From Sinorhizobium terangae (GTDB lineage Bacteria > Pseudomonadota > Alphaproteobacteria > Rhizobiales > Rhizobiaceae): a stretch of 64,000 nt of DNA. The notes beneath the pieces are model-generated. The model was not told the DNA's origin and made no database searches. It saw nothing but the letters and a program-made list of their open reading frames with translations. The translations under genes and the position numbers were made by a program. The stretch covers positions 1-64,000 of the forward strand of contig NZ_WITC01000095.1 in NCBI RefSeq assembly GCF_009601505.1, in the 5' to 3' direction. Of the stretch, positions 1 through 8,272 are shown one piece after another (position 1 is the first letter of the stretch; every line of letters starts with the position of its first letter).

Positions 1-871
1 TATTCGCCGGCCCCCGCGTCTGGTCGGCCGAGCCGGTAAAGTCGAAGCGGATGGTGTCGCCCGCCTTTTCCACCCGGACATGGATGCGCACCGGCTTTGA
101 CAGTTCGACGCCATCGTCGTCGACAAAGCGCTCGGCCTCGAAGACGCCGTCCTTCCAGGTCTTGATAATCGCCCGCATCCGCCGCTCGGCGATGTCACCC
201 AGTTCGTTGAAAGCGGCGACGCATTTCGATGCACCGAACTTTTCCAAAAGGGCCGCAAGCCGGCGCTCGCCGAGACGGGCGGAGCCCAACTGGCCACGAA
301 TGTCGCCGAGCACCAGTTCCGGCGTGCGGCTGTTGGCGGCTATGATCCTCTCGACATCGCCGAAGGGCAGGTAGTTGCGCTGGTAGCGCACCGGCGGCAA
401 TTGCAAGCCTTCATTATAGACTTCACGCGCCTGGCCCGAGCAGCTCCCCGGCACCGGGCCACCGATGTCGCCCTTGTGCGCGATGCTGGCGCAGAACGCT
501 ACCAGCGTATCTTCGAAGAACAGCGGCGTGATCACCGCCATGTCAGGCGCATGAGGGCTGCCACCCTCGTAGGGGTCGTTGATGAGGAACGCGTCGCCAG
601 GCGCGATGTCGCCACCGAACGCTCGCAACACCGCCTCAGTGCAAGCCGGGAAGGCGCCGATGTGCAACGGCAGGACCACGTGCTGGGCGATGACCGCCGC
701 ATTGGCGTCGAGGAGCGCGCAGGAAGCATCCTGCGATTCCCGGATAATGGTTGAAAAACCGGTGCGGAACAGCGAGTTCTGCATCTCCTGCACGATGCCG
801 CCGAGGCTCGCGCGGATCACTTCAAGTTCGACGGCAGTGGGCCTGCCAAGCGAAGCGCTACGCTGCAGCAT
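1..871 (-). CDS. hyuB: Hydantoinase/oxoprolinase B subunit (N-terminal part, cut by window edge)
   Basis: About 290 codons read from ATG at 871 to the window edge with no stop, so the C-terminal half is outside. The protein shows HyuB-family features: an N-terminal segment VELEVIRASLGGIVQEM, then RESQDAS, a NDPYEGGSPHAPDM block and the IAHKGDIGGPVPGS motif. HyuB proteins pair with HyuA in ATP-dependent opening of hydantoin-like or 5-oxoproline rings, and some relatives belong to acetone or acetophenone carboxylases. The start overlaps the hyuA stop by one base (TGATG), implying translational coupling and a cytoplasmic HyuA-HyuB complex. The actual substrate cannot be read from sequence. Confidence 0.9.
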   Translation of the reverse strand, partial: MLQRSASLGRPTAVELEVIRASLGGIVQEMQNSLFRTGFSTIIRESQDASCALLDANAAVIAQHVVLPLHIGAFPACTEAVLRAFGGDIAPGDAFLINDPYEGGSPHAPDMAVITPLFFEDTLVAFCASIAHKGDIGGPVPGSCSGQAREVYNEGLQLPPVRYQRNYLPFGDVERIIAANSRTPELVLGDIRGQLGSARLGERRLAALLEKFGASKCVAAFNELGDIAERRMRAIIKTWKDGVFEAERFVDDDGVELSKPVRIHVRVEKAGDTIRFDFTGSADQTRGPAN

Positions 872-2931
872 CACGCGACCTCCGTTACGATGAGATTCTT
901 GAATTCGTCGACCCGAACCTGCTGACCAGGCAGGATGACCGTGGTGCAGTCGAACTGTTCCACGACGGCCGGGCCGGTGAAGACGAGCCCGACATCCAGG
1001 CGCTCACGCTGGTAAACGGCGCAGTCGAGGTTTTCGCCGTCGAAGCGGACCGGACGGCGCCCGAGAAACGCCTCCGCAAGCGTTCCGCCGCTCGGCTGGT
1101 AGCGCTTGGCGTTGACCGGCGGCACGAGGCCGACAGCCTTGACGCGATAGGAAACGATCTCCACGGATTCGCCTGATGCCTTGTGACCGAACATCACCTC
1201 ATGCTCGGCATCGAAAGCGCTGCGCACGGCATCGATATCCGCGGTATCGGCCAGCGCACCGATCGGAACAGTAAGTTCATACCCCTGCCCGGCATAGCGC
1301 AGATCGAGAGCCCGCTCGATACGGATGCGATCCGCCCGGAAGCCTTCCTCGGCGAGGTCGGCGAGCGCCTGTGCTTCCATGCCGGCGAAAATCGCGTTGA
1401 GTTCGCTTGCCGAGGCGCCGTCGAGCGGTGTCAATCGTGAGCGCACATAGTCATGCGTGACGTCCGACATCACCAGGCCCATGGCCGAGAAGACGCCGGC
1501 ATGCAGCGGCACGACGAGACCGGCCATGCCGAGCTCACGGGCGATGCGGGCGGCATGCAGCGGACCGGCGCCGCCGAAGGGCAGCAACATGAAGTCGCGC
1601 AGATCGTGGCCGCGCATCGTCGAGATGGCCTTGATCGCCTCCTCCATCTTGACGTTGATGATCCGCACGATGCCTTCGGCCGCTTCGAGCACATCCATGC
1701 CGAGCGGACCAGCCACATGGGTTTCCACGGCCAGGCGTGCTTTCTGCGCGTCGAGACGCATCTTGCCACCGAGGAAGTTTTCTTCCGAAAGATGACCGAG
1801 CAACAGGTTGCAGTCGGTGATCGTCGGCTTGGTGCCGCCGCGGCTGTAGCAAGCAGGACCCGGTATAGCGCCGGCGCTTTCCGGCCCGACCTGGAGGACG
1901 CCGAAACGGTCCACTTCGGCGATCGTGCCGCCGCCGGCGCTGACCGTGTTGATATCCATCATCGGCATGGCGATGTCGCGGCCCTCGACCTTGCCGCGGT
2001 TGGCGATCACCGGCGTGCCGTTCTTGATCAGCGCCACGTCGCAGGACGTGCCGCCCATGTCGAAGGTGACGATGTCGTGGTGGCCGGTGGAGCGCGCCAT
2101 CGCGACGCTCGCAGTCACGCCGCCCGCAGGACCGGAAAGTACTGTCGTGACGCCTTTCTTCGCGGTCGCCTCGAAGGTCGCCATGCCTCCGTTCGACTGC
2201 ATGATGTATTTCTGCGGTGTCTTCACGCCCGCCGCTTCCAGCCGGTCGGCGAGCCGGGCGATGTAGCGGGCAAGGACCGGTTGCAGGTAGGCGTTGATCA
2301 CCGTCGTGCTCAGGCGATGGTATTCGCGGATCTGCGGCACGATTTCTGACGAAAGCGAGACTTCGCAGCCTGGCAGTTCCTCGCGGACGATTTCGCGGAT
2401 CCACTCCTCATGGCGCGGATAGAGGAAGGAGAAGAGCAGGCAGACGGCGACGGATTCGACGCCCTGGCCGCGGAGTTCGGCAAGCGTCTCGCGAAGCGCG
2501 GCTTCGTCGAGTTCGGCAAGGACGCTGCCGTCGTGCACCACGCGCTCCGAGACTTCGCCGGTCAGGGACGGCAGCACGATCGGCTGAGGCTTTTCATAGA
2601 GGATATCGAAGATCGCCGGCCCATGCGGACGCGCCTGCTCACCGACTTCGTAGATACCGCGAAAACCTTTGGTCACCAGAAGTCCGGTCTTCGCCCCCTT
2701 GCCTTCCAGAAGCGCGTTCGTCCCGACCGTCGTACCATGGCAGAAATAGCTCACCTCGTCCGGACGCACGCCGCGCCCCAACAGAATATCGATCCCGGAA
2801 AGGATAGCCCGCGACGGGTCGTCTGGTGTCGACGGAACCTTGGAAATCGACGTCTCTCCCGTCGTTTCGTCGAGATAGACAAAGTCCGAAAACGTCCCGC
2901 CGGTGTCGACGGTCACGCGATAGCCTCCCAT
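871..2931 (-). CDS. hyuA: Hydantoinase/oxoprolinase A subunit
   Basis: 686 residues, the usual HyuA length. The actin-like ATPase fold is visible as DTGGTFSD at residues 9-16, HGTTVGTNALLE near 64, a second phosphate loop DMGGTSCD near 290, and the conserved GGGTIAEVD and SAGAIPGPACYSRGG segments after it. HyuA supplies ATP-dependent activation of the lactam in hydantoin/5-oxoproline hydrolysis; acetone carboxylase beta subunits share the fold. The ATG at 2931 follows a GGGAGG ribosome site at 7-base spacing. Two LysR genes lie just upstream on the same strand and hyuB overlaps its end, so the four genes probably form one regulated locus. Substrate unknown. Confidence 0.92.
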   Translation of the reverse strand: MGGYRVTVDTGGTFSDFVYLDETTGETSISKVPSTPDDPSRAILSGIDILLGRGVRPDEVSYFCHGTTVGTNALLEGKGAKTGLLVTKGFRGIYEVGEQARPHGPAIFDILYEKPQPIVLPSLTGEVSERVVHDGSVLAELDEAALRETLAELRGQGVESVAVCLLFSFLYPRHEEWIREIVREELPGCEVSLSSEIVPQIREYHRLSTTVINAYLQPVLARYIARLADRLEAAGVKTPQKYIMQSNGGMATFEATAKKGVTTVLSGPAGGVTASVAMARSTGHHDIVTFDMGGTSCDVALIKNGTPVIANRGKVEGRDIAMPMMDINTVSAGGGTIAEVDRFGVLQVGPESAGAIPGPACYSRGGTKPTITDCNLLLGHLSEENFLGGKMRLDAQKARLAVETHVAGPLGMDVLEAAEGIVRIINVKMEEAIKAISTMRGHDLRDFMLLPFGGAGPLHAARIARELGMAGLVVPLHAGVFSAMGLVMSDVTHDYVRSRLTPLDGASASELNAIFAGMEAQALADLAEEGFRADRIRIERALDLRYAGQGYELTVPIGALADTADIDAVRSAFDAEHEVMFGHKASGESVEIVSYRVKAVGLVPPVNAKRYQPSGGTLAEAFLGRRPVRFDGENLDCAVYQRERLDVGLVFTGPAVVEQFDCTTVILPGQQVRVDEFKNLIVTEVA

Positions 2932-3108
2932 GCGGCAGCCTCCCTGATGCGCTCCCTGCGGCCTGCCATTCAGGCCGCCCGGCGCTCTCTCCTGACCGCG
3001 CCGGACTTGATGTATGGCAAGCCTAGTGGCGCGAAGACGGCCTGTCCAAGACCGTTGAAAGCGGCGAGCTATAAGTTTTTCGCTATGGCTGAGGGAGGTC
3101 GCATGGCG

Positions 3109-4059
3109 TCAGGAAGACGTCCCGGCAATGTCGAAGCGCGGATCGACGATGATCGCGTAAGGGGCCGAGGCACGACAGATATGACGAACCACGTCCTTCA
3201 GGAACGGTCCGATGACTTCGTCTTCCAAAGGCGAGCGCTCCTCGCGCCGGCTCACCATGTAGAGCGTGCGGCTCGGCACGGGACGCTCTATCCTGCGGAT
3301 GGCGAAGATGCCGCGGCTGACGCCGTCGGCAACGCTGCCATAGGGCAGAAGGCTGGCGCCGCCCTCGGCGATGCGCGCCCGGATCGCCGGCACCGACTGC
3401 ATGTCCGAAACGATGCGCGGTTCAAGCGACAGTCGCTGGGCCATGCGGCGGACAAGCGTGACGATGCCACGCTCGCCGGCGAAGAAGAGCTCCTCTTGAA
3501 GGGCGTCGGCAAAGCTGATGGGGCTGTCGTCCTGAGCGTTGGCGCGGGCGGTCACGAACAGCAGTTCGTCCTCTATCACAGCTTCGCGCACCAAGCCCGG
3601 ACGCCCCTCGACGTCATAGGCAAAGGCGAGGTCGATCTCCTTCCGCTCGAGCGCAGCGATCAGCGCGAAGCTCAACTCCTCGACCAGCTTCAGCGATGTC
3701 GCCGGCAGTTTCGTCCCCGCCGCGATCAGCACGTCGGCCCCGACAAGGCGCATGTGGCTCGGGACGAGGCCGATCACGAAAGGACGCGGCGCCGGGCTGC
3801 CGGCGGCAGACCGGACGTCCTCAAGCGTCCGCTCCAGAAATCGCTCCAGTTCGTTGTAGCGCTCGTACAAAACCTCGCCGGCCTTCGTCGGCACGACGCC
3901 GCGCGAATGCCGCTCGAACAGGCTGACACCGATCTCGCGTTCGAGGTCGCGAATCTGGATGCTGATCGCGGTCTGGGCAAGCTTCAGCCGGGCGGCGGCG
4001 TGCGACATGCCGCCGGTTTTGACCACCATCGCGAAATAGCGCAGCTGCCGAAGGTTTAT
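3109..4059 (-). CDS. LysR-type regulator, apparent ATA start
   Basis: LysR-type transcription factor of 316 residues: winged HTH at residues 1-60 (NLRQLRYFAMVVKTGG, then AAARLKLAQTAISIQIRDLE) and a substrate-binding effector domain from about residue 90. The family N-terminus (M)NLRQLRYF begins exactly at ATA (4059-4057). The in-frame codons before it are TAA GCC, so no upstream start is possible; the first standard start is ATG at 4029, which would delete ten residues of helix 1. GAGGAGG lies 7 bases before ATA, and ATA overlaps the stop of the preceding LysR gene as ATAA. The protein resembles that upstream regulator, suggesting tandem duplication. Likely controls itself and hyuAB. Confidence 0.85.
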   Translation of the reverse strand: MNLRQLRYFAMVVKTGGMSHAAARLKLAQTAISIQIRDLEREIGVSLFERHSRGVVPTKAGEVLYERYNELERFLERTLEDVRSAAGSPAPRPFVIGLVPSHMRLVGADVLIAAGTKLPATSLKLVEELSFALIAALERKEIDLAFAYDVEGRPGLVREAVIEDELLFVTARANAQDDSPISFADALQEELFFAGERGIVTLVRRMAQRLSLEPRIVSDMQSVPAIRARIAEGGASLLPYGSVADGVSRGIFAIRRIERPVPSRTLYMVSRREERSPLEDEVIGPFLKDVVRHICRASAPYAIIVDPRFDIAGTSS

Positions 4060-5015
4060 GGCTTAGCCTCCTCGTGTCGACGCGGTACAACGTTGCCGAT
4101 GAGATTGCCGTAGGGTCCCATCTTCTCGGCGAGCCGGCCGATCATCCGGTCGAGAAAGGCGAGCAGCGCCGTTTCATGAACGAAAGACGGGGCATCCGAC
4201 ATCCGGTTCAGGAAGAGCGTCCGCTTGATCGACGGCTGGCGGATCGGACAGGCAACGATCAGCCCCTGCTGGATTTCCTCCGCGACCACGCCGTAAGGCA
4301 CCACGCTGGTGGCCGCTCCCCGCGCGACCAGCGTCTTGATCGCCGGCATTGACTGCACCTCGAAGGCGACGTTCACGGAAAGCCCTTGCCGGCCCGCCAC
4401 CTCGTGAACGAGCCGCCAGACGATGTCGCGGTCGCTGACGAGCGCCAGGTCGGTGCGGATCGCCTCCTCGAACGAGATCGATTCCCCAAGCACGCGGGAT
4501 CCGGCGCCGGCGACAAAGAGCAATTCTTCCTCAATGAGCGCGGTGGCCGCGAGCCCCGGACGGTTCTCGAACTCATATGCGAGCGCGACATCGAGCTCGC
4601 GGCGCATAAGCGCGTCGATCAGGATGAAGCTCAGTTCCTCGACCACGCGGAAGGATATGTCCGGGATCTCGTCACGGGCGGCAACAAGTAGTTCCGGGCC
4701 TATCAACGCCTGGATACTGGGCGTGACGCCGAGATTGACCACCTCTCGCCTCGCCGCCCCATGCGCCTTCACCTCCCGGCGCGCCTCCTCGACGGAACTG
4801 AGTATGGCAAGCGCATGCCGGTGCAATACCTCACCGGCCTCGGTCAGCGAAATGCCGCGCGAATGACGAACCAGAAGCCGGACGCCAAGCGATTCCTCCA
4901 AATGCCTGATCTGCTGGCCGAGCGCCGTCTGCGCGACATTCAAGCCCTCCGACGCCCGGGTGATATTCCCGGTCTCGACCACCTTCACGAAATAACGAAG
5001 CTGCCTGAGATTAAT
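4056..5015 (-). CDS. LysR-type regulator, apparent ATT start
   Basis: LysR-type regulator of 319 residues with N-terminal HTH (NLRQLRYFVKVVETGN, then ASEGLNVAQTALGQQIRHLE) and a C-terminal LysR substrate-binding domain. The family-consistent start is ATT at 5015-5013 with GGAGG five bases upstream. The open frame runs back only to a TAG eleven codons earlier and contains no ATG, GTG or TTG. The first standard start is GTG at 4988, which would remove nine N-terminal residues. It shares the VV-TG, AQTA, QIR-LE and RHSRG patterns with the following LysR gene and overlaps it by 4 bases. It probably senses a metabolite linked to the hyuAB substrate; that link is inferred from position only. Confidence 0.85.
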   Translation of the reverse strand: MNLRQLRYFVKVVETGNITRASEGLNVAQTALGQQIRHLEESLGVRLLVRHSRGISLTEAGEVLHRHALAILSSVEEARREVKAHGAARREVVNLGVTPSIQALIGPELLVAARDEIPDISFRVVEELSFILIDALMRRELDVALAYEFENRPGLAATALIEEELLFVAGAGSRVLGESISFEEAIRTDLALVSDRDIVWRLVHEVAGRQGLSVNVAFEVQSMPAIKTLVARGAATSVVPYGVVAEEIQQGLIVACPIRQPSIKRTLFLNRMSDAPSFVHETALLAFLDRMIGRLAEKMGPYGNLIGNVVPRRHEEAKP

Positions 5016-5150
5016 GGTCTCCTCCCAAATCCACGGACCGTGGCGATGCTACTGCTCGCCGTGCCGAACGCGCAATGGCGTTTCTTTCAGGCTTCGACCT
5101 ATCGCCACCAGTGGCCCGCACCTGAGGTCGAGCCAATTAAAGGACAAAAC

Positions 5151-5203
5151 ATGCAGCAATTCAAAGTCAGCGTCCTTTGCGCGTCTGAGACGCGCGGCGC
5201 TGT
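5151..5203. repeat. Mosaic intergenic palindromic repeat, copy 1
   Basis: Begins with ATGCAGCAATTCAAA and continues into an imperfect hairpin built from CAGCG...GCGCGTCT and AGACGCGCGGCGCTG. The same two modules occur at 35337-35537 and 37994-38094. This is a rhizobial interspersed element in noncoding DNA. Confidence 0.7.
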
Positions 5204-5281
5204 AAACGACGCCGACCTCGGGGTTGCCCGCCAGACCGCGGTGGCCGGGGGCGTTGTCGCCGGTGGAGCGGGTGTGGAGAT

Positions 5282-5397
5282 GACGCCTAGAGCATTTTGC
5301 AGTCAGGTGGAATCACCTGACGTCGCACAAACGCGGCAAAAACAAACAGATAGAGCGGTGGCGCGAACGCACGTAAGCGCATCCCGCTCTAGACACC
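5282..5397. repeat. Second repeat mosaic with short palindromes
   Basis: Starts with CATTTTGCAG and the dyad TCAGGTGGAATCACCTGA, and ends with GCGCATCCCGCTCTAG, a tail shared with the GCGGGATG-type repeat at 10769-10815. Noncoding; the middle is less conserved. Confidence 0.5.
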
Positions 5398-5569
5398 GAG
5401 AGTGATGATTGCGCCGGGCCTCACGGCTGGCTTGGCCGGTGTGCCGATCGGGCCGACATACTGCTCCAAAGGCGTCGCCGAGCGCCAGGCGATCTGCGGA
5501 TCCGGTCCTCACTGGGGGTACTGAGTTACTATGGTTCCACCTTAGTAAGCCATTGACTTTGAAGACAAA

Positions 5570-5645
5570 TGGTGGGCCCGGAGGGACTCGAACCCCCAAC
5601 CAAGCGGTTATGAGCCGCCGGCTCTAACCATTGAGCTACAGGCCC
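5570..5645 (-). tRNA. tRNA-Ile2 (anticodon CAU, encoded CCA)
   Basis: A complete 73-nt cloverleaf (5645 to 5573) followed by an encoded CCA. The acceptor stem GGGCCTG pairs with CGGGCCC (one G-U pair), the D arm carries GGTTAGAGC, the anticodon loop is CTCATAA and the T arm GGTTCGAGTCC. The CAU anticodon with the GGCGGCTCATAACCGCTTGG arm matches the isoleucine type (compare E. coli ileX) rather than elongator Met. Such a tRNA needs TilS lysidine modification of C34 to read AUA. Confidence 0.9.
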
Positions 5646-5702
5646 TTGCCGGTCATCTGCCGGTTGACCGCGAACCAATGGTAATTCGCGGGTCGCAATG
5701 GC

Positions 5703-5730
5703 TCTAGCGGAAAACCTTTTTGACGACAAG
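5703..5730 (-). promoter_or_regulatory. Candidate tRNA-Ile2 promoter
   Basis: On the minus strand CTTGTC (5730-5725) and GCTAGA (5708-5703) are spaced by 16 bases, close to the rhizobial housekeeping pattern, about 58 bases before the mature tRNA 5' end. Supported by sequence similarity only. Confidence 0.4.
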
Positions 5731-5798
5731 CCATTGCCGCAATGCCTACACAATCGATAAGCAAGAGTTCGGCATAAAACAACCGGAGAGAAATAACC

Positions 5799-6584
5799 AT
5801 GATTTCTACACGCATTGCCCGCACGGTTCATGTCGCTGCCATGGCCGCTGCCTTTGCCGGCGCTTTTGCCGCCGCCGCTGTGGCGGCCGACGGCAATGAT
5901 ACCAAGAGCGGCGGCAACGGGCGTCCGGAAGGCGTCCGGGGCCGGCAGGCGCTGATCAAGGTCTCCGGTGAAGGCCGCGCAACGGCAGCACCCGACATGG
6001 CGATCGTGCAATTGAGCGTCGTCAAGGATGCGAAGAGCGCGCGCGAGGCGCTCGACGCCAACAACAAGGCGATGGCGGAGGTGCTCTCGGCACTCAAGCA
6101 GGGCGGCATTGCCGAGCGCGATCTGCAGACCAGCGGCTTCGCCATCAATCCGCAATACAACTACCCGCAGGGCAACGACGGCAGCAACCGCCCGCCGGAA
6201 CTCATCGGCTATCAGGTCGTCAACGGTGTTACCGTGCGCGTGCGCGATCTGAGCAATCTCGGCGAGGTCCTGGACAAGTCCGTGACCCTCGGTATCAACC
6301 AGGGCGGCGGCATCGAATTCACCAAGGACAAGCCCGACGAAGTCATCACCGAGGCCCGCAAGGCGGCGGTGGCCGACGCGATTGTCAAGGCGAAGGTGCT
6401 GGCGGAGGCGGCCGGCGTTTCGCTCGGCCGGCTCATCGAGATCTCGGAACAGGCTTCGCGCCCGGAACCGGTTCCGATGGTACGCAGCATGGCCAAGGAA
6501 TTCGCGGCCGATGCCGTTCCGATCGCGACCGGCGAACAAACCTACAATGTCACCGTCAACGTGACCTTCGCCATCGAGCAGTGA
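5799..6584 (+). CDS. SIMPL-domain periplasmic protein (BP26/Omp28-like)
   Basis: 261 residues. A signal peptide covers about residues 1-30 (ending AAAAVAA), then a single SIMPL (DUF541) domain from about residue 48 with the pattern KVSGEGRATAAPDMA, a central DLQTSGFAINPQYNYP and a C-terminal VTVNVTFAIEQ. It resembles the Brucella 26-kDa periplasmic immunogen BP26/Omp28, which assembles into large periplasmic or envelope structures; biochemical function is unclear in the family. The ATG follows GGAGAGAAATAACC. Divergent from the tRNA gene and followed by two back-to-back terminator hairpins, so probably monocistronic. Confidence 0.88.
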   Translation: MISTRIARTVHVAAMAAAFAGAFAAAAVAADGNDTKSGGNGRPEGVRGRQALIKVSGEGRATAAPDMAIVQLSVVKDAKSAREALDANNKAMAEVLSALKQGGIAERDLQTSGFAINPQYNYPQGNDGSNRPPELIGYQVVNGVTVRVRDLSNLGEVLDKSVTLGINQGGGIEFTKDKPDEVITEARKAAVADAIVKAKVLAEAAGVSLGRLIEISEQASRPEPVPMVRSMAKEFAADAVPIATGEQTYNVTVNVTFAIEQ

Positions 6585-6645
6585 GCATTTGGCCCGGCGC
6601 GGCGAAGGAAACCGCACCGCGCCTCTTTTGCGCGATGACCACAGG

Positions 6646-6680
6646 CAAAGCCCCGGCGAATTCATCGCGCGGGGCCTTTC
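6646..6680 (+). terminator. Terminator after the SIMPL gene
   Basis: GCCCCG pairs with CGGGGC, extended by GCG/CGC around a bulge, followed by CTTTC. Lies 62 bases after the stop codon at 6584. Confidence 0.6.
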
Positions 6681-6685
6681 GAATC

Positions 6686-6716
6686 AAAAGCCCCTCACGG
6701 GTTTTCCATGAGGGGC
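6686..6716 (-). terminator. Terminator for the small secreted protein gene
   Basis: Perfect 8-bp arms GCCCCTCA / TGAGGGGC (6690-6697 and 6709-6716), with TTTTG following on the minus strand. It lies 47 bases after the minus-strand gene. Confidence 0.65.
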
Positions 6717-6762
6717 ACATTTCCGCGGCCGGGGAAGACAGACGGTGCGGAAATCCGGCAGG

Positions 6763-7128
6763 TTACCAGCGGCCGACCACCGGGCATCCACGCACATTGG
6801 CGAAGATGATTGCCTGGCGGTAACCATGGCGGCGGCCCTCGACGATGACCTGGCGCCGCGCGACATTGGCGACATGGGCCCGGCGCAGACCGCGATCACG
6901 TGCCTTTTCGACGGCAAGCCAGGGGTCACAACGGCCGCGGCGCTCACCGCCCCAGCGGGGGCGATCCCTGCGCCAGTCGCGATCGTAGTCACGGTACTGG
7001 ACATCGGCGGCACGCGGCGACCCGAACTCGAATATCACCGATTGAGCAGAAGCGGCGGTGGCTGCACCCGCAAGACCGGTCAGCCCGATGACGGCAGCAA
7101 CCGCGGCATTGACGAGGAATTTTCTCAT
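6763..7128 (-). CDS. Small secreted basic protein, unknown function
   Basis: 121 residues from MRKFLVNAAVAAV, an N-terminal signal peptide ending near ATAASAQS (about residue 29). The mature part is rich in Arg, Asp and Trp (YRDYDRDWRRDRPRWGG) and ends with a conserved-looking IFANVRGCPVVGRW tail with one Cys; another Cys is at CDPW. I do not recognise a named domain. I chose the internal ATG at 7128 because it follows CGGAGAAACGCT and starts a proper signal peptide; a frame opening ten codons earlier has no such support. Probably exported to the periplasm; flanked by its own terminator. Confidence 0.7.
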   Translation of the reverse strand: MRKFLVNAAVAAVIGLTGLAGAATAASAQSVIFEFGSPRAADVQYRDYDRDWRRDRPRWGGERRGRCDPWLAVEKARDRGLRRAHVANVARRQVIVEGRRHGYRQAIIFANVRGCPVVGRW

Positions 7129-7367
7129 AGCGTTTCTCCGGTGTGGCGAAGGATTCAAAATTGGCGATTACCGCTCTCGACGATTGCGCCAACCATAGTC
7201 CGGATAAACTGAACGCTACCGGAACCCTCCGTTCATGCACTGTTCAGGTTGATGAACACTGCATGGACGAAACAGCAGGCAACACGATTCGTTCCCGTCG
7301 ACCGCGCCTGCTTCGGCTGATCCAGAGAGAAAACCACACAGAGATTCAGTATGTTACGTGGGGCGGC

Positions 7368-7772
7368 TCAGCTCGCCAGCTCCCGCTCGAAGATGCGGAG
7401 ATTGCGATAGTGGCTGAGGCGCGTGATGGCGCCGTCCTCGATTTCGAAGATGAAAACGCTCGGAATGGCGTAGATCTGGCCCGAGGCCTCGGGAAATCCC
7501 GGCATGGTCTTGCGATAGGTGCCGCGTGCGGTCATGTCGGCCGCAACCCGCTGCCCGAAGGCGTCATGCATCAGCACGATATCGCTGAACGCCTCGTCGA
7601 AATGGCTGAGATAGTTCATGATCCAGGCCCTGAGCGGACCGACGCCCATGGTTCGCTGGCCGGTCAGCGAATCAAGCGCGACGTCCTCATCGACGAGCCG
7701 GGAAAGCGCATCGAAATCACGGTCATTGACGGCCTCGATGAAACGGCTGGCGATGGTTTGCGCGTTTGTCAT
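7368..7772 (-). CDS. SnoaL-like / NTF2-fold protein
   Basis: 134 residues, the normal size for a single NTF2-like domain. It starts MTNAQTIASRFIEAVNDRDFDALSRLVDEDV, the typical helical start of SnoaL/ketosteroid-isomerase-like proteins, and ends with FEIEDGAITRLSHYRNL. Members bind small hydrophobic ligands or catalyse isomerisation or cyclisation, but the substrate cannot be predicted here. The ATG at 7772 follows GGAGACAGACG; an earlier in-frame start seven codons upstream looks weaker. A stand-alone gene between a small secreted protein and yjbQ. Confidence 0.8.
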   Translation of the reverse strand: MTNAQTIASRFIEAVNDRDFDALSRLVDEDVALDSLTGQRTMGVGPLRAWIMNYLSHFDEAFSDIVLMHDAFGQRVAADMTARGTYRKTMPGFPEASGQIYAIPSVFIFEIEDGAITRLSHYRNLRIFERELAS

Positions 7773-7849
7773 CGTCTGTCTCCGAAGCTGCACTGTCGCC
7801 CACTGTACCGCAGATTAGTTGGCCGGAGCAGAACTCAGTAAAGCGCCGT

Positions 7850-8272
7850 TCACGCGCCAAGATGCAGGACGATCTCGCGCCGGTGCGGGCGATCGCGATG
7901 TTCGAACAGATAGAGCCCTTGCCAGGTGCCGAGCATCATGCGGGCATCGCTTATCGGGATGCCGAGCGAGACCTGGGTGAGCGCCGCCTTGATGTGCGCC
8001 GGCATGTCGTCCGGTCCCTCCTGGGTGTGGACGATCCAGCGCATCGTAGGATCGGAGGACGGCGGCACCAGGCGACCGAAGAACTCGGTGAGATCGCGTT
8101 TCACATCCGGGTCGGCGTTTTCCTGGATGAGCAAGGATGCGGACGTATGGCGGACGAACACGGTGAGAAGTCCCTCCGCGATGCCTGATTGCCGCACGAA
8201 ATCGGTGGCAGCATCGGTGAACTCGTAGAGTCCCTGGCCACGGGTGGCGATGGTGATGACAGTCTGCGGCAT
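7850..8272 (-). CDS. yjbQ: YjbQ / UPF0047 family protein
   Basis: 140 residues, full length for the family. The conserved centre is present: RHTSASLLIQENADPDVKRD at residues 41-60, SDPTMRW, HIKAALT and GTWQGLYLFEHRD near the C-terminus. YjbQ forms a trimer with a metal-like site and has weak thiamine-phosphate synthase activity in E. coli; its true role is unsettled. It begins MPQTVITIATRGQGLYEFTD, a standard start. The DUF1428 gene lies 22 bases upstream on the same strand, so the two may be cotranscribed. Confidence 0.88.
   Translation of the reverse strand: MPQTVITIATRGQGLYEFTDAATDFVRQSGIAEGLLTVFVRHTSASLLIQENADPDVKRDLTEFFGRLVPPSSDPTMRWIVHTQEGPDDMPAHIKAALTQVSLGIPISDARMMLGTWQGLYLFEHRDRPHRREIVLHLGA

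Follow-up and report, generated by a model that had tools for sequence, protein, structure and literature searches.

Two adjacent LysR-type regulator genes of Sinorhizobium terangae raise the question of where their translation begins, and with what consequence: where the family N-terminus is expected, the first reads ATT and the second ATA. The window analysed here is the whole stretch of 64,000 nucleotides (contig NZ_WITC01000095.1, positions 1 to 64,000), and its minus-strand order is LysR1 and LysR2, head to tail, then hyuA and hyuB. The preferred reading, held to be probable, is that these are genuine weak AUH starts (AUU, AUC or AUA) behind strong Shine-Dalgarno sequences, which hold synthesis of the regulators low, with LysR2 coupled through an AUAA junction. 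The features concerned are the following.

4056..5015, minus strand: LysR1, LysR-type transcriptional regulator, 319 aa, read as ATT-initiated (PF00126 81.1 bits, PF03466 106.4 bits)
5013..5015, minus strand: LysR1 start codon ATT, where the family N-terminus falls; the frame has no NTG after its TAG and before GTG 4988
5019..5026, minus strand: LysR1 Shine-Dalgarno GGGAGGAG; anti-Shine-Dalgarno duplex -10.2 kcal/mol
3109..4059, minus strand: LysR2, LysR-type regulator, 316 aa, read as ATA-initiated (PF00126 77.1 bits, PF03466 67.1 bits)
4057..4059, minus strand: LysR2 start codon ATA; frame TAA-GCC-ATA, with no ATG, GTG or TTG before ATG 4029
4056..4059, minus strand: ATAA overlap of the LysR2 start with the LysR1 stop, read directly
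4067..4073, minus strand: LysR2 Shine-Dalgarno GAGGAGG, within the LysR1 3' end; -11.6 kcal/mol
871..2931, minus strand: hyuA-like gene, hydantoinase/oxoprolinase, 686 aa (PF01968, PF05378, PF19278); probable target operon
1..871, minus strand: hyuB-like gene, 5' part, cut at the window end; annotated as hydantoinase B in Ensifer adhaerens (L202)

Start codons and the family N-terminus

The assignment of the LysR1 start to ATT and of the LysR2 start to ATA is well supported by the sequence. The earlier note had held that the LysR1 frame offers only ATT 5015 between an in-frame TAG and a later GTG, with a GGAGG ribosome site before it, and that LysR2 starts at ATA 4059, preceded by GCC and TAA, in a 4-base ATAA overlap with LysR1; on direct reading all of this stands, coordinates included. 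Upstream of LysR1, the in-frame TAG ends at 5049 and is followed by eleven codons (CAT CGC CAC GGT CCG TGG ATT TGG GAG GAG ACC) and then by ATT at 5015-5013. From there the gene reads ATT AAT CTC AGG CAG CTT CGT TAT TTC GTG, of which the GTG at 4988 (codon 10) is the first ATG, GTG or TTG after the TAG. The ribosome site is read as GGGAGGAG at 5026-5019, and the end of its GGAGG lies 5 nt from the ATT. The LysR2 frame runs TAA (4065-4063), GCC, ATA (4059-4057), with the earliest ATG at 4029 (codon 11) and a spacing of 7 nt between GGAGG and ATA. The TAA stop of LysR1 occupies 4058-4056 and has two bases in common with the LysR2 ATA, which places the overlap at 4059-4056.

Both proteins pass the cut-offs for HTH_1 (PF00126, 26.6 bits) and LysR_substrate (PF03466, 28 bits). 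In each, HTH_1 position 1 aligns to residue 3, the domain spanning residues 3-62, and the NCBIfam LysR model NF008410 matches from residue 1 and from model position 1; the family N-terminus therefore sits at the AUH codons. Translation from GTG 4988 and ATG 4029 would instead yield proteins without the first HTH helix, or two isoforms. These are the earliest canonical codons, and the open reading frame listing gives exactly these, but no GGAGG-like sequence directly precedes GTG 4988, and together with the comparisons described below this makes a downstream start very improbable.

Among the LysR genes of this genome the pair is exceptional. There are 81 HTH_1 matches, of which 79 were checked for upstream starts; the two omitted, on contigs C23 and C41, have a score equal to that on C9. 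An in-frame NTG lies upstream of HTH_1 position 1 in 77 of the 79 matches, LysR1 and LysR2 being the only exceptions. The matches outnumber the genes, as two on C52 fall in a single frame and some contigs occur more than once. For four of the 77 (L134, L148, L184 and L185) one has to go 14-39 codons upstream to reach an NTG, and their starts are uncertain. The 52%-identical paralogue on contig C59 starts at ATG. As a positive control, the infC gene of the same genome (L142, contig C29) starts at ATT behind GAGGAG. LysR genes of the same score recur on contigs C32/C33 and C9/C23/C41, which suggests repeated or doubly assembled stretches of the draft. No special RNA structure was found at the start, the four regions folded being no more stable than their shuffles (z 0.69, 1.59, 1.94 and 1.79).

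Relatives of the pair and the wider subfamily

The pair is carried by 7 of 33 genomes of the genus: its own, one of the same species (S. terangae CB3126) and five others (S. mexicanum, S. chiapasense, S. psoraleae, Sinorhizobium sp. 6-70 and Ensifer sp. IC3342). At E <= 1e-60, a 52-53% paralogue is all that three further genomes contain, and the remaining 23 lack the pair and the paralogue alike. In all seven carriers LysR1 begins with ATT, LysR2 with ATA, and the ATAA overlap is present; GGGAGG precedes LysR1 and GGAGG precedes LysR2 in every one, and the bases around these cores vary. Ensifer adhaerens (L202), whose LysR1 is 75% identical, also keeps ATT, ATA and the ATAA overlap. The comparison of orthologous N-termini that the earlier note had proposed thus finds ATT and ATA retained in the seven genus carriers and in E. 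adhaerens. Among 394 genomes of the family, only two, this genome and another of its species, gave LysR1 at E <= 1e-100, and the same held for LysR2 at E <= 1e-90.

AUH codons lie outside those that gene callers usually accept, and callers limited to ATG, GTG and TTG would misplace such starts, damaging the DNA-binding domain. The earlier note had expected annotation pipelines to truncate both genes. In the one annotated pair examined, that of E. adhaerens (L202:5983-7922, NZ_CP083351.1), both starts are misplaced: LysR2 is annotated late, at a CTG two codons downstream, and LysR1 early, at a TTG six codons upstream.

Sequence change within the pair argues further against a downstream start. 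In Rhizobium sp. P32RR-XVIII (L035) the start codon of LysR1 is ATC, and the later GTG is replaced by GTC. The LysR2 of this strain has ATA without the overlap, a weak Shine-Dalgarno sequence and an ATG five codons upstream. Codons 2-9 would be untranslated if the later GTG or ATG were used, yet they vary mainly at third positions, which speaks for the AUH starts: variable sites at codon positions one, two and three number 1, 1 and 5 in LysR1, with amino-acid changes in two of the eight codons, and 1, 0 and 4 in LysR2, with no amino-acid change (among six sequences, of which four are closely related). Against three relatives, LysR1 has a dN/dS of 0.09-0.14 and LysR2 one of 0.03-0.07, and because these values are low both genes are judged to be alive and under purifying selection. 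Sequencing error or dead genes, for which no point in favour was found, would require seven agreeing genomes and dN/dS of 0.03-0.14 to mislead together; the idea is refuted by these data, and its likelihood is negligible.

A third relative, present in four genus genomes (L026-L029), has ATA behind GGGAGG in all four. No NTG is available to it in S. terangae, and in the other three there is a GTG 15 codons upstream. In S. terangae it sits on a 2.1-Mb plasmid.

The trait extends beyond the case in the earlier note. Genome contigs were searched with a LysR1 profile, a method that picks matches by two peptides irrespective of their start codon; 154 relatives came out, and the 80 best were retained. 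The start-codon table drawn from this and other searches holds 59 rows above 225 bits, 44 of them non-redundant, and in these the family-start codon is ATG in 15, ATC in 13, ATA in 6, ATT in 5, CTG in 2, GTG in 2 and CTT in 1. AUH thus occupies the family start in 24 of 44 rows, and 21 remain once three with an ATG directly before it (L196-L198) are set aside. These three read Met-Ile-Lys, and may represent a transition from one kind of start to the other. The 21 include Sinorhizobium, Ensifer and Rhizobium, Bosea and kin, Ancylobacter, Aquamicrobium and Rhodobacter, and, among the beta-proteobacteria, Castellaniella and Azohydromonas; judged by aligned codons, AUH starts reappear in a LysR subfamily that spans alpha- and beta-proteobacteria. 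Members of this subfamily were detected, at E <= 1e-85, in 7 of 397 genomes of the order, 1 of 385 of the class and 2 of 369 of the phylum, each count including the own genome.

Twelve of the 21 AUH rows lack any NTG between the in-frame stop and the AUH codon. In nine of these 12 the next NTG falls inside HTH_1, at codon 24-56, and a start there would therefore truncate the HTH or leave little of it, which again weighs against downstream initiation. The exceptions are LysR1 (GTG at codon 10), LysR2 (TTG at codon 6 in row L033, ATG at codon 11 in the window) and L195 (TTG at codon 6). The other nine AUH rows have an upstream NTG, for example L202 (TTG -6), L043 (ATG -6) and L107 (ATG -12), and for this reason a longer form is possible in them; the near-copy L032 likewise has an upstream GTG at -6. 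In L064 a GTG lies two codons before the family-start codon. The two CTG family starts (L037:4001-4003 and L057:4001-4003) have GGAGG 5 or 9 nt upstream, and an in-frame NTG further upstream. Twenty-eight Pseudomonas relatives (L083-L106 and L108-L111), with Tyr at the family-start place and ATG three codons before it, were omitted from the start table and from a 67-row tree, and L065-L082 are also absent from the start table.

It might be argued that the Ile codon is internal, and that translation starts further upstream and reaches it by frameshift, readthrough or a LysR1-LysR2 fusion. ATT, ATC and ATA are all Ile codons, and L196-L198 do have Met-Ile at this place. However, the aligned codon is ATG in 15, GTG in two and CTG in two of the 44 rows; 18 of the 21 AUH rows carry an SD-like motif of at least 4 bases at a distance of 3-9 nt upstream of the codon; and the codons further upstream differ among E. 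adhaerens, Rhizobium and Sinorhizobium. An internal Ile is accordingly hard to credit. Weak Shine-Dalgarno sequences among the AUH rows are those of L051, L036, both L035 genes and L200.

The median anti-Shine-Dalgarno duplex is -10.2 kcal/mol in AUH rows (n=21) vs -4.2 kcal/mol in NTG rows (n=17), with p=0.005 when kinship is not removed. With kinship removed, five independent pairs are left, of which on average 2.1 point in the same direction and 0.3 in the opposite one; significance is unreachable with so few. The proposal that a strong Shine-Dalgarno sequence compensates for the weak codon was therefore set aside, five kinship-free pairs being unable to give significance despite the raw p value.

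On a tree of 52 rows (30 AUH, 20 NTG and 2 CTG; seven of the 59 were dropped, six for being near-copies and one, L107 minus, for being distant), the AUH label changes nine times, or eight with the CTG rows disregarded, and at least six changes are forced by well-supported branches. Shuffled labels give 17 changes vs the 9 observed, and none of 500 shuffles is as low, a clustering that near-copies help. In the earlier 67-row tree, with most Pseudomonas relatives left out, all AUH rows fall in one 47-row group (96/94). The number of changes fits either gain or loss: AUH may be old in the subfamily and repeatedly lost, or it may have arisen repeatedly there, although nothing similar is seen in 77 of the 79 LysR matches of the own genome.

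These patterns bear on the suggestion that AUH starts are nearly neutral accidents, tolerated since LysR proteins are needed in small amounts and serving no regulation. The nine changes on the tree are in its favour, as are the coexistence of AUH and ATG rows and the variation of neighbour genes between clades. However, only 2 of the 79 own-genome LysR matches have the trait, though the others should tolerate low output too, compared with 21 of 44 rows in the subfamily, and the label is clustered on the tree beyond what any shuffle gave. Neutral accident is rather unlikely, though by no means far-fetched.

Proposed weak starts and regulator level

An AUU or AUA codon matches the initiator tRNA in its first two bases but not in its third. 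If the AUH codons are genuine weak starts, the strong Shine-Dalgarno sequence would recruit the 30S subunit, IF3 would reject most of the complexes, and regulator output would be a small fraction of the AUG rate. Low output and dependence on IF3 are argued here from the codon class and from published cases. Ribosomes finishing LysR1 would restart on the AUA of AUAA, and the synthesis of the two regulators would be both linked and low, perhaps also growth-dependent. The purpose is likely to be a supply of few copies of the regulators for the adjacent hydantoinase-like operon.

Restart of LysR2 after termination is suggested by the ATAA overlap together with a Shine-Dalgarno sequence inside LysR1, and it is from this arrangement that we infer coupling by re-initiation. 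ATGA-type overlaps are 4-base stop-start overlaps with an internal Shine-Dalgarno sequence; the present junction differs in that the restart codon is AUA. The path from a common ATGA pair would be an easy one, because a single G-to-A change gives ATAA and retains the stop.

The known AUH genes offer several comparisons. E. coli pcnB encodes an enzyme and not a regulator. The likeness of the LysR pair to infC, which has an AUU or AUA start and is autoregulated by its product IF3, lies in an AUH start with a Shine-Dalgarno sequence, as also seen in the ATT and GAGGAG of infC in this genome; the difference is that the infC product reads the codon and closes a feedback loop, which a LysR protein cannot itself do. 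IF3 acts against the AUU of its own gene, and pcnB is the other AUU gene of E. coli (PMC9410913). It is similar to LysR1 in its start codon and different in being a single case.

The nearest precedent is the pair of genes ccpN (AUA) and cvfC1 (AUU) of Staphylococcus and Bacillus, which resemble the LysR genes in having a conserved non-canonical start and a strong Shine-Dalgarno sequence. In S. aureus these starts are conserved behind an extended Shine-Dalgarno sequence; on poor medium they yielded roughly a tenth (10%) of what AUG gives, and on rich medium ccpN reached 30% (PMC13009471). CcpN is a metabolic transcription regulator, and the loss of output relative to AUG was measured for ccpN and cvfC1 (PMC13009471). 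The precedents differ in being single genes of other families in Firmicutes, whereas the LysR genes form a tandem pair with an AUAA overlap in a proteobacterial subfamily. It is because the anatomy is as in ccpN and cvfC1, with a strong Shine-Dalgarno sequence, an AUH codon and a regulator beside catabolic genes, that low synthesis is taken here as the function. The GTG of lacI in Enterobacteriaceae is similar in that a catabolic regulator has its effect reduced by a start codon other than ATG (PMC11445065). It is different in that GTG is an ordinary alternative start and AUH is weaker.

In the literature searched, published AUH starts are those of single genes: infC, pcnB, ccpN, cvfC1 and citZ. 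No report of AUH starts in LysR genes was found in the open-licence literature among the matches listed. One paper that mentions both LysR and an ATA start codon was discarded, as its ATA belongs to a mutant of Bdellovibrio bd0108 in which ATG had been changed, and no LysR gene is involved; two other matches were likewise irrelevant. What is known already is the AUH device and a regulator that has it (ccpN); its occurrence in a LysR subfamily and in a tandem pair is new, as is the AUAA junction.

AUH starts suggest a built-in way to keep regulators scarce. As they recur across a transcription-factor subfamily, with forced cases in several genera, selection for weak regulator starts becomes testable. 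The trait is not needed for function, since 15 of the 44 rows have ATG and 2 have GTG at the family start, L064 has its upstream GTG, and L196-L198 have ATG before the AUH codon. It may be, as a tentative and rather doubtful extension, that AUU, AUC and AUA form an inherited start signal in the subfamily, through which the regulator level follows the initiation machinery (IF3, initiator tRNA and growth rate) beyond transcription, the AUA restart tying Sinorhizobium LysR2 to LysR1.

Neighbouring genes and an upstream tRNA

The order LysR1-LysR2-hyuA-hyuB also occurs on a plasmid of Ensifer adhaerens (L202, NZ_CP083351.1), and hyuA and hyuB lie downstream in L032-L035 as well; stretches 87-98% identical to the hyuB-like gene are found in L032-L035 and L202. 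It is probable, we infer, that the pair regulates the adjacent hydantoinase-like operon. A tie between AUH starts as such and this operon was rejected, as hyuA is beside the gene in only 5 of 38 loci (L032-L035 and L202), mostly searched over flanks of ~4-6 kb. Ten neighbour proteins were taken from six non-hyu loci, and seven have a Pfam match at E <= 1e-8: six transport proteins and one seryl-tRNA synthetase.

A tRNA gene with anticodon CAT lies at 5570-5645 on the minus strand, ~550 bases upstream of the LysR pair, and a tRNA is likewise upstream in L033 and L034. ARAGORN calls it tRNA-Met, but it is probably an AUA-reading tRNA-Ile2, because the top three among the E. coli matches listed, at 82.9%, carry the annotation tRNA-Ile. 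Rfam at gathering scores gave nothing besides this tRNA in window positions 1-8000. In a scan of 18 loci besides the window, which excluded the other genus carriers because their loci are short, a CAT-anticodon tRNA was present in L033 and L034 and absent from the other 16, and in L032 none was found within 4 kb. Elongator tRNAs are not expected to initiate, and for this reason, together with the rarity of the tRNA at these loci, a role for it in reading the AUA start was dropped. The tRNA is possibly the entry site of an island found in 7 of the 33 genus genomes.
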